Positions 27,590 to 40,969 of a DNA stretch of 64,000 nt are shown one piece after another. Source of the stretch: Deltaproteobacteria bacterium (lineage in GTDB: Bacteria; Desulfobacterota; GWC2-55-46); assembly GCA_016234935.1 (NCBI GenBank), contig JACRNL010000011.1, positions 1 through 64,000 on the forward strand, read 5' to 3'. Each line of letters begins with the position of its first letter. Within the stretch, counting starts at the first letter, position 1. Under the pieces are notes generated by a model. It had not been told where the DNA came from. It searched no databases and was given only the letters and a program-made list of their open reading frames with translations. The position numbers and the translations under genes are program-made.

Positions 27590-27751
27590 ATGGCTGAAAA
27601 CAATATAAGCGCTCCTATACCGAGCGGGCAGGCCTGGTATGACAATATTTTTCTGCTTCTGGTGGTGGGAATTGTTGTGCCTACGATCATCTACACGGTG
27701 TGGGGGCTTATCGAGGTAATGAACGTGCCCCCGCTGCCTCTGGCGCCTTAA
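27590..27751 (+). CDS. 53-aa single-helix membrane protein at the head of the heme-copper operon
   Basis: A short protein with a polar N-terminus (MAENNISAPIPSGQAWYDN), one membrane helix (FLLLVVGIVVPTIIYTVWGL) and a proline-rich end (VPPLPLAP). AAGGAGGGAAGGGTT precedes the ATG. Position and shape suggest a small accessory subunit of the terminal reductase, like the short subunit IIa of ba3 oxidases, though similarity by eye is only structural. Confidence 0.7.
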   Translation: MAENNISAPIPSGQAWYDNIFLLLVVGIVVPTIIYTVWGLIEVMNVPPLPLAP

Positions 27752-28072: not shown

Positions 28073-28597
28073 ATGGCAATACATGAGCCGGAAAGGGTTT
28101 GGTGGAAGCCTTTAAGCAAGGATGAAAGGATATGGGTTGCCGTTGCGCTCGTATGGATGCTAATTACCTTTATCTATATGCCGGTATATCACTTCATAGG
28201 CGCGCAGAACCCGCCTGCCGAGACATACGCGGTCAAGCCCGACCAGTTTGACAAACTCGTTGAGGCAATGGTGGCAAAGCACAAGATTGGCGAGGAAAAG
28301 GGCGTTCCGATAGTTCAGGCCTTTCCGGACGAACCCGTCTTCATAAGGGCGAAGATGTGGGAGTGGTACCCGATAGTCCAGCTCGAGAAGGGCAAGACCT
28401 ACCGGTTGCACATCTCGTCAATGGACGTTGACCACGGCTTTTCCATACAGCCTGTCAATATGAACTTCATGGTGCTGCCGAAATACGACTACGTGCTCAC
28501 GCTTACGCCCACGCAGTCAGGCGAGTTCCACGTCATATGCAACGAGTTCTGCGGACTGGGCCATCACGCGATGGTCGGCAAGATGTACGTGAAGTAA
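28073..28597 (+). CDS. Heme-copper oxidase/reductase subunit II with CuA site
   Basis: A 174-aa membrane-anchored cupredoxin. One N-terminal helix (WVAVALVWMLITFIYMPVYH) holds it in the membrane with the domain outside. The CuA ligands are present: the histidine in MDVDHGFS and the cluster CNEFCGLGHHAM (C-x3-C-x3-H-x2-M with the glutamate between the cysteines). Electrons from a c-type cytochrome or copper protein would enter here. Start 28073 follows AAAGGAGGAAATAAAGAG; the frame before it is repeat DNA. Confidence 0.9.
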   Translation: MAIHEPERVWWKPLSKDERIWVAVALVWMLITFIYMPVYHFIGAQNPPAETYAVKPDQFDKLVEAMVAKHKIGEEKGVPIVQAFPDEPVFIRAKMWEWYPIVQLEKGKTYRLHISSMDVDHGFSIQPVNMNFMVLPKYDYVLTLTPTQSGEFHVICNEFCGLGHHAMVGKMYVK

Positions 28598-28651: not shown

Positions 28652-28786
28652 ATGTCAGACGACAGAGAGTCTAAAGAAATGCACGCCCCGGGAGTTTTCG
28701 TGCTCTCGTTCATTTTCCTGGCGGTCTTTATCATAATCTGGTGGGCGCACTATAAATGGCTCGCAGAGGTCTGGGGCGTTCAATAA
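28652..28786 (+). CDS. 44-aa single-helix membrane protein in the heme-copper operon
   Basis: MSDDRESKEMHAPGVFVLSF begins a charged N-terminus followed by one helix (LSFIFLAVFIIIWWAHYKWL) and a short tail. AAAGGAGGAAACA precedes the ATG. It lies between subunits II and I and is probably a small structural subunit. No family recognised. Confidence 0.7.
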   Translation: MSDDRESKEMHAPGVFVLSFIFLAVFIIIWWAHYKWLAEVWGVQ

Positions 28787-29036: not shown

Positions 29037-30548
29037 ATGGCGGACTTTAAATACAGAACCTGCACCTTATCAGGGATGAAGATAGAACAGGGCAGCGCGA
29101 ACCTTATAAAATGGAACGTGATAGCCGCCCTGGCCACCCTCGCTGTGGGCGGACTCATGGCCTTTTTAGTGGCCCTTACAAGGTGGCCGAGCATTCACTT
29201 TCTGTCGCTCACTAACTACTACCGCTTTCTCACGCTCCACGGTGTTGACGCGCTGCTGGCATGGATCATCTTCTTCGAGATGGCCCTGGTGTATTTCGCG
29301 TCGTCGGTGCTCCTTGGCACGAGGGTGCGGGCGGCGTGGATAAGCTGGATATCGTTCGCCCTCATGCTCATAGGCGGCGCGCTTATCAACACGATAGTTC
29401 TCATGGGCAGGGCCGACGTGCTCTTTACCTCTTACGTGCCGCTTAAGGGCGACCCGCTGTATTACCTCGGCATCATCCTCTTCGCGGTGGGCGCGCTTAT
29501 CGGCTTCATCATGTTCTTCGTCAACATCTACTACGCGAAAAAGGAAGGCGCTTACAAGAGGACGCTTCCTCTCGGGGCCTTCGGCATCGCCGCCGCGAGC
29601 ATCATCGGCGTCTTTACGCTCCTCCACGGCGCGGGCATCTTCATCCCGACCTTCCTCTGGTCGGCGGACATCATCAGCTACGTCGACCCGTCGGCCTACA
29701 GGCTTGTCTTCTGGGGGCTCGGCCATGCCTCGCAGCAGATAAACGTCTGCGCCATGGTGGCGGTCTGGTACATGACGTCGGCCTTTGTCGTGGGCGGCAA
29801 GCCCGTGAACGAGAAGCTTTCAAGGACGGCGTTCATACTCTACATCCTTTTCATCAACCTTGCCTCGGAGCATCATCTTCTTGTAGACCCCGTGCTTTCC
29901 ACGTGGCACAAGATCGTCAACACCAGCTACATGATGCATCTGGCGGTCCTAGCGAGCATGATCCACGCGTTCGCCATACCGGCCTCCATGGAAGTGGCGC
30001 TCAGGAAGCAGGGGCACACCAGAGGGCTTTTTGAATGGCTCAAGAGGGCGCCGTGGGGCAACCCGGCCTTCTCGGCCGCCGCCATCTCGATACTCCTGTT
30101 CGGCTTCCTCGGCGGCATTACCGGCGTCATCTTCGGGACCGAGCAGTTCTCCATCATCCGCCACAACACCTTCGCCATCACGGGCCATTTCCACGGCACG
30201 GTCGTTGCGGGCACGACGGTAGCGTTCATGGGCTTTACGTACCTGATACTTAAATACATATTCGCCAGGGAGCTGATATGGAAGGGTTTCGCGTCGATCC
30301 AGCCGTATCTCTACGGCGCGGGCGTGGCGATGCTTTCCATCGGCATGATGAGCGCCGGGACGTTCGGCGTTCCGAGGAGGCACTACGACATAAGCTTCTC
30401 CGGGGCCCTGTTCAACCACACCTTTGACCCTATGGTCGACATCTTTCTCGGCATGATGGGCATAGGCGCCATTCTCTCCGTAACGGGCGGAATTCTTTTC
30501 ATAGCCATCGGCTTTGGTTCCATGATATGGGGCAAAAAGATCGAATAG
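29037..30548 (+). CDS. Heme-copper oxidoreductase subunit I, B-type, lacking the active-site tyrosine
   Basis: A 503-aa, roughly 12-13-helix catalytic subunit. Metal ligands appear where expected: low-spin heme His68 (FLTLHGVDALL), CuB His230 (WGLGHASQQ), CuB His279-His280 (ASEHHLLVDP), and His384/His386 (ITGHFHG) for the two hemes. The spacing closely matches ba3 oxidases. The residue four after His230, normally the cross-linked tyrosine, is Gln234, and Glu278 directly precedes the His pair. Both resemble nitric oxide reductases that evolved from oxygen reductases, so NO reduction is as likely as O2 reduction. Start at 29037 is set by GGAGGAATTGG upstream; 29019 is an alternative. Confidence 0.88.
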   Translation: MADFKYRTCTLSGMKIEQGSANLIKWNVIAALATLAVGGLMAFLVALTRWPSIHFLSLTNYYRFLTLHGVDALLAWIIFFEMALVYFASSVLLGTRVRAAWISWISFALMLIGGALINTIVLMGRADVLFTSYVPLKGDPLYYLGIILFAVGALIGFIMFFVNIYYAKKEGAYKRTLPLGAFGIAAASIIGVFTLLHGAGIFIPTFLWSADIISYVDPSAYRLVFWGLGHASQQINVCAMVAVWYMTSAFVVGGKPVNEKLSRTAFILYILFINLASEHHLLVDPVLSTWHKIVNTSYMMHLAVLASMIHAFAIPASMEVALRKQGHTRGLFEWLKRAPWGNPAFSAAAISILLFGFLGGITGVIFGTEQFSIIRHNTFAITGHFHGTVVAGTTVAFMGFTYLILKYIFARELIWKGFASIQPYLYGAGVAMLSIGMMSAGTFGVPRRHYDISFSGALFNHTFDPMVDIFLGMMGIGAILSVTGGILFIAIGFGSMIWGKKIE

Positions 30549-30790: not shown

Positions 30791-30883
30791 AATGTCGTGA
30801 CGGATGATAAAAATCATACAACCGCGCATGTTATACTGTTAAAATCAATCTTGATAAAATCCGTAAGGTATTTGAAATTGCTG

Positions 30884-31747
30884 ATGTGGAAGATAAAAAA
30901 GAAGCCGGTTTTAACGGCGCTATGCGCGGCGCTCGCGTGCGCGCTCTTTTTGTTTGCGCGTCCAGTTGCCGCGTCCGAGCTTGACGCCGCCGCCATGAGA
31001 GACGCGGTGGACGCCGCCGCAAGGGCCGAAGGCACTGCCCCCGGTGATTTTGAGCTTACAGACCAGGACGGCATAAAGTTTCATCTCAGCGATTACTTTA
31101 AAGGGGACAGGCGCCGGCCCCTTGTCGTCAGCTTTATCTACGCGAGCTGTCCGCATGTATGCCCGGCTGTTACCGCCGAGGTTAAAAAGGCCGCGGTTGA
31201 CGCCAGAGCGAAGTTAGGGGTCAAGCCCCCTCAGGGGGACAGGTTCAACGTCCTTTCCATCAGTATAGATCCGCAGCGCGACACGCCCAAAAGGCTCAAG
31301 GAGTACGGCCTGCGCTTTACGCGCGACTTCGGCCAGATGAGGTTTGCGGCGCCGGCGCAAAAGGACGTAAATGCGCTGACCGGCAAGTTCGGCTTTTTTT
31401 TCGCCGCGAAAGACGACGGCAGCTTCGACCATATAGACATGGCCTCAGTCATGAAGTCTGACGGGACTATCTACAAGCAGGTATACAGCATAAGGACTGA
31501 CGGAAGCGGCATAAGACAGAGGCTCGAGGAACTGATAACGGGCAAGCCCGCGGTTTCGTCGTCGTCTCTCGTGGACAAGATAAAATTTTTCTGCTACAAG
31601 TACGACCCCTACTCGAACAGGTATGTCATTGATTATCCGATACTCGTCAGCATTTTTCTGCAGACGGCCGTCTTTGCCGTGATAATCGGCCTCGTCTGGG
31701 GGAAGAAGATAAAGGGTTTTTTCAGGCGTAATTTCAGGGGAAAATAG
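30884..31747 (+). CDS. SCO1/SenC-type copper chaperone with C-terminal membrane helix
   Basis: A 287-aa thioredoxin-fold protein. A signal anchor (PVLTALCAALACALFLFARP) is followed by the SCO domain with the copper motif YASCPHVCPAV (CxxxC) and the distal histidine in FDHIDMAS. A second membrane helix lies near the C-terminus (YPILVSIFLQTAVFAVIIGL). SCO proteins deliver copper to CuA, fitting subunit II upstream. Residues LGVKPPQGD are encoded by a short palindrome. Start 30884 begins the signal sequence; AAGGT is about 14 nt upstream. Confidence 0.88.
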   Translation: MWKIKKKPVLTALCAALACALFLFARPVAASELDAAAMRDAVDAAARAEGTAPGDFELTDQDGIKFHLSDYFKGDRRRPLVVSFIYASCPHVCPAVTAEVKKAAVDARAKLGVKPPQGDRFNVLSISIDPQRDTPKRLKEYGLRFTRDFGQMRFAAPAQKDVNALTGKFGFFFAAKDDGSFDHIDMASVMKSDGTIYKQVYSIRTDGSGIRQRLEELITGKPAVSSSSLVDKIKFFCYKYDPYSNRYVIDYPILVSIFLQTAVFAVIIGLVWGKKIKGFFRRNFRGK

Positions 31748-31825
31748 CAAAAAAAGCGGTTCAAAAAAATATGCGCGGCAATGGCAAGAGGCCGCCAAGA
31801 GGCCTATAGGAGGCAGGTGGAAAAA

Positions 31826-33379
31826 ATGGAAGACACACAGCGCTATTTCAAGCAGGCAGGCCCGGCTGAAAGGCTCTGGTTATGGCTTGAAAAGGCCGTC
31901 AACGACGCCGCGCCGAGCGCGTATAATCCCTTTTATTACCTCGGGGCGGTCTGTATTTTTTTCATATGGATCATCCTTGTCTCCGGCCTTTATCTTTTCC
32001 TCTTCTACAGTATTTCCGCAAAAGAGGCATACCCGTCGGTCGAGGCGCTCACGCACGGCCAGTGGTATCTGGGCGGCGTAATGAGGAGCCTGCACAGGTA
32101 CGCCTCCGACGGCCTTGTGATAGCCGCCATACTGCATACGCTCCGCTGCTACGTGCTTGACAGGTACAGGCACTGGCGGAAGGTCGCGTGGGTCTCCGGC
32201 GTCATTATCGCGTGGATAATCATCATCGGCGGCATCATCGGCTACTGGATGGTTTGGGACAAGAGGGCGCAGCTTATCGCGCTTTTGTCCTCGCGTCTGA
32301 TAGAGGCGGTGCCGATCTTCGGCCTGCCGCTTTCCCTCAGCTTTTCAAGGCTCGAAACCCTTACTAATAACTTTTTCTATATCATCCTGTTCATACATTT
32401 CACGACGCTGTTCGTCATCTTTCTCCTGATAATGGTTCATATCAGCAGGATAACCAAGTCCATAATCAACCCGCCGAAGGCGGTCTCCTACGGGATAGTC
32501 CTTGTGCTTCTCGCGCTTGCATTCCTGAAGCCCGCCGTGAGCGCCCCTGCGGCTGATATTAAAACATTGCCTCTGGACGTGCCGTTTGACTGGTTTTTCA
32601 TGTTTATTTTCCCGCTCTTGAAGTATTTTTCCGAGCATCAGGTATGGTTTTTCACGGCCGGGCTTACTCTGGCCTTTGCCGCTGTCCCGTGGCTGGCATG
32701 GGGTAAGGCCGTGAGGAACCCTGCGGCCAAGGTGACGCTCTCAAACTGCACCGGCTGTGAGCTGTGCGTGGAGGACTGCCCCTATCAGGCCATCCAGATG
32801 ATAAAAAGGACGGACGGGCAGACGTATGACCTTGAGGCGGTGGTGATGTCCAACCGGTGCGCAAGCTGCGGCATATGCGCCGGCGCGTGCGACTATAACG
32901 CGATAAACCTTCCGAATATAAGCGAAGATATGGTAAAGGACGCGATAACGAGACATTGCAGGGAGCTTGACGGCAAGGCCGATAAGAAGGTCATTGCTTT
33001 TTTCTGCGCCAAGGGCGCAGGCATAGAAGGTGCGTCCGGCGGAAGGATACAGGACGCCGAGTGGGTGCGCGCGGTTCATCTGCCATGCATAGGCATGCTC
33101 CAGCCTTCGATGATAGCCCTTGCGCTTGACGAAGGGGCGGACGGCGTGTTCGTTGCCGGATGCAGGCAGGGAGATTGCAGTTACAGGACGGGCAATGCCT
33201 GGTTTGCCGGAAGGCTTGCCGGACTCCGCCCGCCGGTGGTCAGAAAGTCCGTTGACCGCAGCCGGATAAGGGCGGTGTGGCTCTCTGCCGTTGAAAATGA
33301 GGCCCTCATGGGCGAGCTCCGGTCATTTTACGCCGGCCTTAAAAAGAAGGGGGTTGAACCCCCTCAGGGGGTAAGTTGA
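31826..33379 (+). CDS. Cytochrome b / 2[4Fe-4S] ferredoxin / MvhD-like fusion protein
   Basis: A 517-aa fusion. Residues 20-220 are a cytochrome b6-type four-helix bundle with both heme pairs as H-x13-H (SLHRYASDGLVIAAILH and IHFTTLFVIFLLIMVH). Two or three further helices follow, with PFDWFF resembling the quinol-site PEWY of subunit IV. From Cys308 come two ferredoxin motifs (CTGCELCVEDCP, CASCGICAGACD). Residues about 375-495 resemble MvhD, the iron-sulfur subunit linking hydrogenase to heterodisulfide reductase, with FFCAKGAG and VAGCRQGDCSYRTGN. No Rieske protein is encoded. The start follows AGGTGG at 5 nt. The last codons come from a palindromic insert. Confidence 0.87.
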   Translation: MEDTQRYFKQAGPAERLWLWLEKAVNDAAPSAYNPFYYLGAVCIFFIWIILVSGLYLFLFYSISAKEAYPSVEALTHGQWYLGGVMRSLHRYASDGLVIAAILHTLRCYVLDRYRHWRKVAWVSGVIIAWIIIIGGIIGYWMVWDKRAQLIALLSSRLIEAVPIFGLPLSLSFSRLETLTNNFFYIILFIHFTTLFVIFLLIMVHISRITKSIINPPKAVSYGIVLVLLALAFLKPAVSAPAADIKTLPLDVPFDWFFMFIFPLLKYFSEHQVWFFTAGLTLAFAAVPWLAWGKAVRNPAAKVTLSNCTGCELCVEDCPYQAIQMIKRTDGQTYDLEAVVMSNRCASCGICAGACDYNAINLPNISEDMVKDAITRHCRELDGKADKKVIAFFCAKGAGIEGASGGRIQDAEWVRAVHLPCIGMLQPSMIALALDEGADGVFVAGCRQGDCSYRTGNAWFAGRLAGLRPPVVRKSVDRSRIRAVWLSAVENEALMGELRSFYAGLKKKGVEPPQGVS

Positions 33380-33463
33380 GATGACAAACACTTTTCAAAT
33401 GGCCAACCTGCGGCTTCGACAAGAGCCCTTAAAAAGAAGGGGGTAAGTTGAGATGACAAACAC
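33338..33463 (+). repeat. Direct duplication of a gene junction
   Basis: CTTAAAAAGAAGGGGG ... TAAGTTGAGATGACAAACAC occurs at 33338-33391 and again at 33428-33463. The first copy holds an extra 18-bp palindromic insert and a decayed start of the following gene (MTNTF... ending after 21 codons). Confidence 0.9.
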
Positions 33464-34121
33464 CCTTATAAAAGAGGTTATCGCATTTGCGGCGCTTATT
33501 GCCGCGGCTTGGTTTGTTTCCGCCCTTGGCAGGAAAAAACAGGTTTTAACAGCCGGCGCCGGCGCTCGGGCAGAGACCGGCTGGCCGGGCAGTGTTGTTT
33601 TCGCGCTGAAGGCCGCCTTGATTCTGGGCATATTCATGGTACCGGTCTATTTCCAATCTGATCCGCCGTATTCGTTTTATACGAATAAGGACGCGTCCGT
33701 CAAGGTGGCCTTCAAGCATATCGGCAAAAAGGTCGTAAACTGCGATGAGGCGGAGGTAATCAAGAGCGAAGGCGAGCGGTACAGAAAGGCATTAAAGAAG
33801 ACCTCGCGCGTGCAGATGAACATGGCGCGGCTGGCCGGCTGCCCGCGGGAAAGGTTCCCTGTGCATGTATCGCTGTCCATTGACGGCAGGGAAGTCCTTG
33901 ACAGGTCATACGCTCCGACCGGGCTTAAGAAGGACATGGCGTCGTATGTCTACGATGAGTTCATCATAGCGCCAGGCCGGCATAAATTGAACGCGCGTCT
34001 CGGCGACAGCGGCAGGAAAGACGCCCCTGATTATACCTTCGAGGAGACGGTTGATATAAAACCGGCTCAGGTAAGGCTCATCATGTTCGACGATACGCTG
34101 GGTAAGCTTGTTCTGGAATAA
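33453..34121 (+). CDS. Unknown membrane-anchored extracytoplasmic protein at the end of the heme-copper operon
   Basis: A 222-aa protein with two N-terminal membrane helices (EVIAFAALIAAAWFVSAL and VVFALKAALILGIFMVPVYF) and a C-terminal domain of about 150 residues likely outside. It has two cysteines (VVNCDEAE and LAGCPRE) that could form a disulfide or bind metal, and a beta-rich end (HVSLSIDGREVLDRSYAP). No family recognised. It follows the cytochrome b fusion and may assist assembly of the operon's complex. Start 33453 is the second copy of a duplicated start region. Confidence 0.75.
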   Translation: MTNTLIKEVIAFAALIAAAWFVSALGRKKQVLTAGAGARAETGWPGSVVFALKAALILGIFMVPVYFQSDPPYSFYTNKDASVKVAFKHIGKKVVNCDEAEVIKSEGERYRKALKKTSRVQMNMARLAGCPRERFPVHVSLSIDGREVLDRSYAPTGLKKDMASYVYDEFIIAPGRHKLNARLGDSGRKDAPDYTFEETVDIKPAQVRLIMFDDTLGKLVLE

Positions 34122-38229: not shown

Positions 38230-40659
<2,430 letters not shown>

Positions 40660-40725
40660 AAGGGGCGGAGATAAAGTTATATCCCTCTCCCATCGTGGGA
40701 GAGGGTAGCGTGAGGAGGCATAGTC

Positions 40726-40969
40726 ATGAGTGATGTCAGAGAAAAAATAGAGTTAGTGGAGAAAGAAGGGTTTAAATATGTCTTTGGTAGGGATATATTT
40801 TGCAGACCATCTGACAGGAAATGTTTCAGTTTGGAATATATAGACTTATGAAAGAAAAGACAAATGGTCTTGTTTCCCCTCTGAAGAATTGGCCGAAAGA
40901 ATTCTCTCAATATCTAAAGAAATATCGCGAATAAGACCTTATTTTTTAATCTTCCGGCATTCTCCTTGA
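40726..40969 (+). pseudogene. Small AT-rich gene broken by a frameshift
   Basis: GAGGAGG precedes an ATG encoding MSDVREKIELVEKEGFKYVF and 21 more residues, then a stop at 40849-40851. A +1 shift just before the stop continues sensibly as TYERKDKWSCFPSEELAERI, then LSISKEISRIRPYF. The AT-rich base composition differs from the neighbours. It may be a decayed gene, or the shift may be a sequencing error. No family recognised. Confidence 0.4.

Follow-up and report, generated by a model that had tools for sequence, protein, structure and literature searches.

The residue at the position of the active-site tyrosine differs between the described families of heme-copper enzymes: it is tyrosine in the oxygen reductases, glutamate in cNOR and qNOR, asparagine in sNOR and CuANOR, and aspartate in gNOR (PMC8756737). 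The eNOR family is defined by a glutamine at this position (Schwartz et al. 2022, PMC8756737, Table A4 and section 2.7.1), and its bearers include Thermus, Anaerolineales, and Deltaproteobacteria (PMC8756737). This glutamine-type NO reductase is traced to Hemp and Gennis (2008), as cited in PMC8756737, and the biochemical characterization of an eNOR is cited in PMC11388526. The assignment has also been applied to environmental genomes (PMC8114936, PMC10734462), and in Ardenticatena, the eNOR is reported to be in one operon with NirK (PMC4653789). Two other kinds of NO reductase, bNOR (CuANOR) and sNOR, are related to the B-type enzymes and have a cupredoxin subunit (PMC8756737, PMC11388526).

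We analyzed a 64,000-nucleotide stretch of deltaproteobacterial DNA (the window). One of its loci very probably encodes an eNOR, that is, a B-type-derived heme-copper NO reductase with a CuA subunit. Judging by its sequence, the enzyme is a member of an already described family, and its glutamine (Gln234) is not peculiar to it. What we add is a derived branch of this family with three linked changes, a conserved gene cassette, and, in relatives, a link to cd1 nitrite reductase.

Subunit I and its active-site residues

The product of 29037-30548 is, by alignment, a heme-copper subunit I of the B type in which all of the copper and heme histidines are present. COX1 is its only match in Pfam. Its ATG is preceded by GGAGGA, and homology with relatives starts at the same ATG. 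The closest solved structures by sequence are the ba3 oxidases of Thermus (E about 2e-38). In the alignment to the ba3 oxidase of T. thermophilus (E = 2e-38), H230 corresponds to H233, Q234 to Y237, H279/H280 to H282/H283, and H384/H386 to H384/H386, so the ligands of CuB (three histidines) and of the hemes are intact. A preliminary description of this DNA, made by eye, had listed the motifs H230-A-S-Q-Q234, E278-H279-H280, and H384-F-H386, had placed a glutamine at the position of the active-site tyrosine, and had remarked that the ligand numbers nearly coincide with those of ba3. The motifs agree exactly with the translation and with the codons in the DNA (CAT at 29724 for H230, CAG at 29736 for Q234, and GAG at 29868 for E278), and the alignment bears out the other two statements.

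An AF2 model of subunit I, made from the window protein and 29 relatives (pLDDT 82.6, pTM 0.87), matches ba3-type chains over their full length (7deg, Z = 37.0; 1ehk, Z = 36.5). We recognized no eNOR entry among the solved-structure matches, whose top entries are ba3-type, which proves nothing about absence. The model is cofactor-free, and around the ligands it has low to moderate confidence (block means of about 45-70), so we claim no geometry for Gln234 or Glu278 relative to the site.

Table 1. Features of the eNOR locus in the window, and cd1 proteins beside the eNOR operons of two Nitrospinota loci (L024 and L040, in coordinates of those loci)
Feature	Position	Strand	Basis or remark
53-aa single-helix protein, probably subunit-IIa-like (name inferred)	27590..27751	+	immediately precedes subunit II in different phyla
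Subunit II (174 aa), a cupredoxin whose CuA ligand set (H, CxExC, H, M) is complete	28073..28597	+	COX2/CoxB matches
44-aa single-helix protein, split-off C-terminal helix of subunit I	28652..28786	+	homologous to the C-terminal helix that other eNORs carry fused
eNOR-type heme-copper subunit I (predicted), 503 aa	29037..30548	+	COX1 match (E = 1e-57), alignment of ligands and Gln234 to ba3, eNOR clade
H230-A-S-Q233-Q234, first CuB His and Gln replacing the active-site Tyr	29724..29738	+	H, Q, and Q invariant in 54 distinct sequences
Glu278 beside CuB ligands His279-His280	29868..29876	+	His invariant; Glu confined to the split-helix branch
His291	29907..29909	+	always accompanied by Glu278; most other eNORs have Trp
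Heme ligands His384 (high-spin) and His386 (low-spin)	30186..30194	+	aligned to ba3 H384/H386
SCO-family copper chaperone for CuA	30797..31747	+	SCO1-SenC (E = 1e-17); conserved in cassette
Cytochrome b6-like/2[4Fe-4S]/FlpD fusion	31781..33379	+	Cytochrome_B, Fer4, and FlpD matches; conserved in cassette
222-aa protein, last cassette gene	33453..34121	+	in many relatives, located after the cytochrome b gene
cd1 protein of L024	5195-6799	minus	operon from about 7259
cd1 protein of L040	3443-5128	minus	two small ORFs between; operon from about 6770

Placement among the eNORs

We compared the window protein with relatives from 39 loci in a species-level genome collection, from whole genomes of its kin, and from named plasmid records. 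The nearest relatives, from the genomes of kin, are 77-84% identical to it. Across 54 distinct sequences, H230, Q233, Q234, N236, Y245, Y269, H279, H280, S307, H310, and H384 are invariant. In the alignment, Q234 is common to sequences from Deltaproteobacteria, Nitrospinota, Nitrospirota, Gemmatimonadota, Verrucomicrobiota, Gammaproteobacteria, Anaerolineales, Defluviimonas, Thermomicrobium, and Thermus, and tyrosine is kept at this position in the B-type sequences from haloarchaea, Burkholderia, Methylobacterium, Deinococcus, and Geobacillus. Because Q233 and Q234 are present in 54 of 54 distinct sequences, which come from independent assemblies, we ruled out that the glutamine is due to chance or to an assembly error.

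In our trees, which were built without the biochemically characterized eNOR sequence from R. marinus, the glutamine clade (including the members from Thermus and Anaerolineales) is separate from the B-type oxygen reductases, with support of 100/100. The published glutamine diagnostic, together with this grouping with eNOR-bearing lineages, supports the reading of the window protein as an NO reductase, and we infer strongly that this is its function. The preliminary description had likewise inferred an NO reductase of the eNOR, gNOR, or sNOR group, or a variant of that group, and had proposed alignments and a tree as the check; these placed the protein in the glutamine clade and not among the oxygen reductases.

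We also looked, as the preliminary description had suggested, for a tyrosine from another helix. In cbb3 oxidases, the tyrosine is on helix VII, six residues before the first histidine of the HH pair; the matching position here is Ile273. Tyr269 is invariant in the glutamine clade and is phenylalanine in the aligned B-type sequences. By helix geometry, Tyr269, ten residues before the HH pair, would lie about one helix turn further from CuB than the cbb3 position, and more likely it is part of a K-channel-like path with Y245, S307, and H310. This bears on whether the protein could be an oxygen reductase after all, with O2 as its main substrate and with Gln234 or Tyr269 replacing the usual tyrosine. 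The fold, the ligands, and the CuA subunit are as in the B-type oxygen reductases, and the invariance of Tyr269 would fit. However, position 234, four residues after the first CuB histidine, is that of the cross-linked tyrosine that A-type and B-type enzymes need for O-O cleavage, and this tyrosine has been lost across the clade; Tyr269 is not at the cbb3 position; the host already has an A-family oxidase; and nirS adjoins the operon in relatives (see below). We consider an oxygen reductase to be quite improbable.

Some relatives have unusual subunits. In two plasmid-borne eNORs from Thermus thermophilus (L076 and L077), the low-spin heme histidine (His386 here) is a lysine, with GHFK in place of GHFH. 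Two contigs (G033:C301 and G031:C67) carry two tandem genes for eNOR subunit I, whose products both have about 68-70% identity with that of the window. And in one deltaproteobacterial MAG, the gene for subunit I is broken by stops or frameshifts (L041:8001-9456; G027:C23:77511-78966) and the neighboring cassette genes are still present.

A derived branch with Glu278, His291, and a split helix

Glu278 and His291 are found in 30 of the 30 complete subunits that end without an extra helix and in 0 of the 23 others. The fused-helix subunits have Ala278 and Trp291 (21 sequences) or Met278 and Val291 (2 sequences), which rules out Glu278 as a hallmark of eNORs. The glutamate beside the CuB histidines, which the preliminary description had emphasized, is thus a real residue, but it is not family-wide and instead marks one derived sub-branch. 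In a tree that was built with columns 278 and 291 and the C-terminal extension masked, the Glu278/His291 sequences form one clade inside the eNORs (support of 99/93; 98% of bootstrap trees), with members from Deltaproteobacteria, Nitrospinota, and Nitrospirota. Since these sequences form one clade even with the features masked, the three changes arose once, and they are not independent tests of each other. The helix that is fused in the classical eNORs has a gene of its own, which in the window's family lies upstream of the gene for subunit I and in Nitrospinota, L017, and L021 comes immediately downstream of it.

These comparisons indicate a derived sub-branch of the eNORs that is defined by Glu278, His291, and the split helix. 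It is a modest structural variant of the known enzyme, with the fission of the last helix as its clean marker. The same three features set the branch apart and could be taken to mean a separate and undescribed family of NO reductases that resembles eNOR only by convergence on glutamine. But the branch is nested in the glutamine clade, where A278/W291/fused-helix members flank it on both sides in the tree, and Q233, N236, S307, H310, and the gene cassette are common to the branch and the other eNORs. A separate family is very unlikely.

Within this eNOR sub-branch, Glu278 and His291 probably adjust CuB on its periplasmic side. The model puts them close to where helix VII ends and helix VIII begins, which makes a contact plausible. 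A more specific idea, which we offer tentatively and think rather unlikely, is that the two form a pair of charges on the periplasmic face of CuB, which was gained once, along with the helix fission, and which supplies protons or tunes CuB for NO reduction; the branch would then have converged in part on the cNOR and qNOR glutamates and would have a distinct mechanism. The branch could also have drifted in function. It allows two naturally occurring versions of the active site, Ala/Trp and Glu/His, to be compared.

A conserved gene cassette

The cassette in the window runs, in order, from the 53-aa helix through subunit II, the 44-aa helix, subunit I, the SCO protein, and the cytochrome b/Fe-S/FlpD fusion to the 222-aa protein, and homologs of most of these genes are in the same neighborhood in several phyla. 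The CuA ligand set is complete in all 30 aligned sequences of subunit II. The fusion protein possibly serves as the electron partner of the eNOR. The 222-aa protein had no match in Pfam. In the Defluviimonas record, consecutive genes encode subunit I, heme o synthase, SCO, cytochrome b, a hypothetical protein, and hemerythrin, and among 103 flanking ORFs of 16 relatives, we found heme o synthase 6 times and hemerythrin twice.

The fusion (31781-33379) joins a cytochrome b6-like part, two 4Fe-4S motifs, and an FlpD domain of the hydrogenase/heterodisulfide reductase type, and it adjoins the eNOR across phyla. The host genome also encodes a homolog of heme-copper subunit I that is about 31% identical (L003:1432-2859, contig C12 at about 39377-40804). 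In this homolog (also in L094, L096, L097, and L098), the first CuB histidine (GGHxLQFAN) and the HxH pair of the hemes remain, but the HH pair of CuB is gone. It is present in 6 of the 6 Glu278-branch genomes that we examined, including the host's own, and in one Verrucomicrobium; it was not found in the genomes that we examined from Anaerolineales, Gemmatimonadetes, or Gammaproteobacteria. In L022, L043, and some Verrucomicrobiota, a paralog adjoins the eNOR genes. A literature search on CuB-less heme-copper proteins found nothing relevant. Near this homolog and a heme o synthase gene on contig C12 is a gene for a 140-aa protein (L142:10218-10640) with a weak match to COX1 (27 bits, below the cut-off).

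Nitric oxide in relatives and in the host

In two Nitrospinota loci of the Glu278 branch (L024 and L040), a cytochrome c-cytochrome d1 protein (PF02239, E = 3e-123 and 2e-120) is encoded divergently upstream of the eNOR operon. Because cd1 nitrite reductase produces NO, this nirS neighborhood is the best contextual evidence as to the substrate. Both regions (L024:3383-6799 and L040:1634-5128) encode two successive d1-domain proteins; in L024, the second of them has an additional cytochrome c domain at its C terminus. The relatives from Thermus adjoin genes of the Rrf2 and DUF542 families, which are often linked to NO or Fe-S stress.

The host genome (2.15 Mb in 15 contigs, estimated to be 100% complete) encodes a NarG-like molybdoenzyme of 1,240 amino acids, an alternative-complex-III-like molybdo-subunit beside a multiheme cytochrome (identified by eye), and its own A-family oxidase. 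Searching it by family for denitrification genes gave no match to cd1 (nirS), NirK, or NrfA and none over the cut-off to NosZ, where absence means no match at that threshold. Given a NarG-like nitrate reductase and no match for nirS, nirK, nosZ, or nrfA, the likeliest role of the eNOR in this host would be NO detoxification or partial denitrification, and the NO likely has an extracellular origin or arises in side reactions of nitrite. That no known NO-producing nitrite reductase was detected would also suit a non-respiratory protein, such as a slow NO scavenger or a sensor that is not a turnover enzyme. Against this, the redox centers for turnover (CuA, two hemes, and CuB) are all conserved, and the cassette includes SCO and a cytochrome b partner, so a non-respiratory role seems extremely improbable.

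If the eNOR assignment is correct, a tyrosine-less NO reductase is present in largely uncultivated lineages (Nitrospinota, and Deltaproteobacteria that are labelled Myxococcota). Standard libraries match the protein only as cytochrome c oxidase, so potential producers of N2O may be misread as users of oxygen.

Proposed mechanism

Electrons, supplied by a periplasmic carrier or by the neighboring cytochrome b/Fe-S protein, would enter at the CuA of subunit II and would pass through the low-spin heme (H68/H386) to the site formed by the high-spin heme (H384) and CuB (H230, H279, H280). There, with NO as the presumed substrate, 2 NO and 2 protons would yield N2O and water. NO reduction needs no tyrosyl radical, so the tyrosine that cleaves the O-O bond could give way to Gln234. 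The protons would probably arrive by a K-channel-like path through Y245, S307, and H310; these invariant residues align near Y248, S309, and T312 of ba3, which are K-channel positions. In the host, the enzyme would remove NO or carry out one step of partial denitrification.

Comparison with known systems

The cNOR and qNOR enzymes presumably catalyze the same reaction and also have an acidic residue near the metal site, but they are C-family kin with glutamate at the tyrosine position, whereas the window protein has glutamine there and its glutamate precedes the HH pair. In the published table, gNOR has aspartate at the tyrosine position and bNOR (CuANOR) and sNOR have asparagine, in contrast to Gln234. 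The B-type ba3 oxidase of Thermus thermophilus shares the full-length fold, the heme and CuB ligands, and a CuA subunit II with the window's enzyme, which differs in having Gln234 for Tyr237, in belonging to a separate clade, and in its altered K-channel positions (His310 at about Thr312). The closest match is to the eNORs: glutamine for tyrosine, the three CuB histidines, an upstream CuA-type cupredoxin subunit II, a clade with the sequences from Thermus and Anaerolineales, and the gene cassette are all shared. The window's branch differs from most eNORs in having Glu278 and His291 in place of alanine and tryptophan and in encoding the C-terminal helix as a gene of its own.
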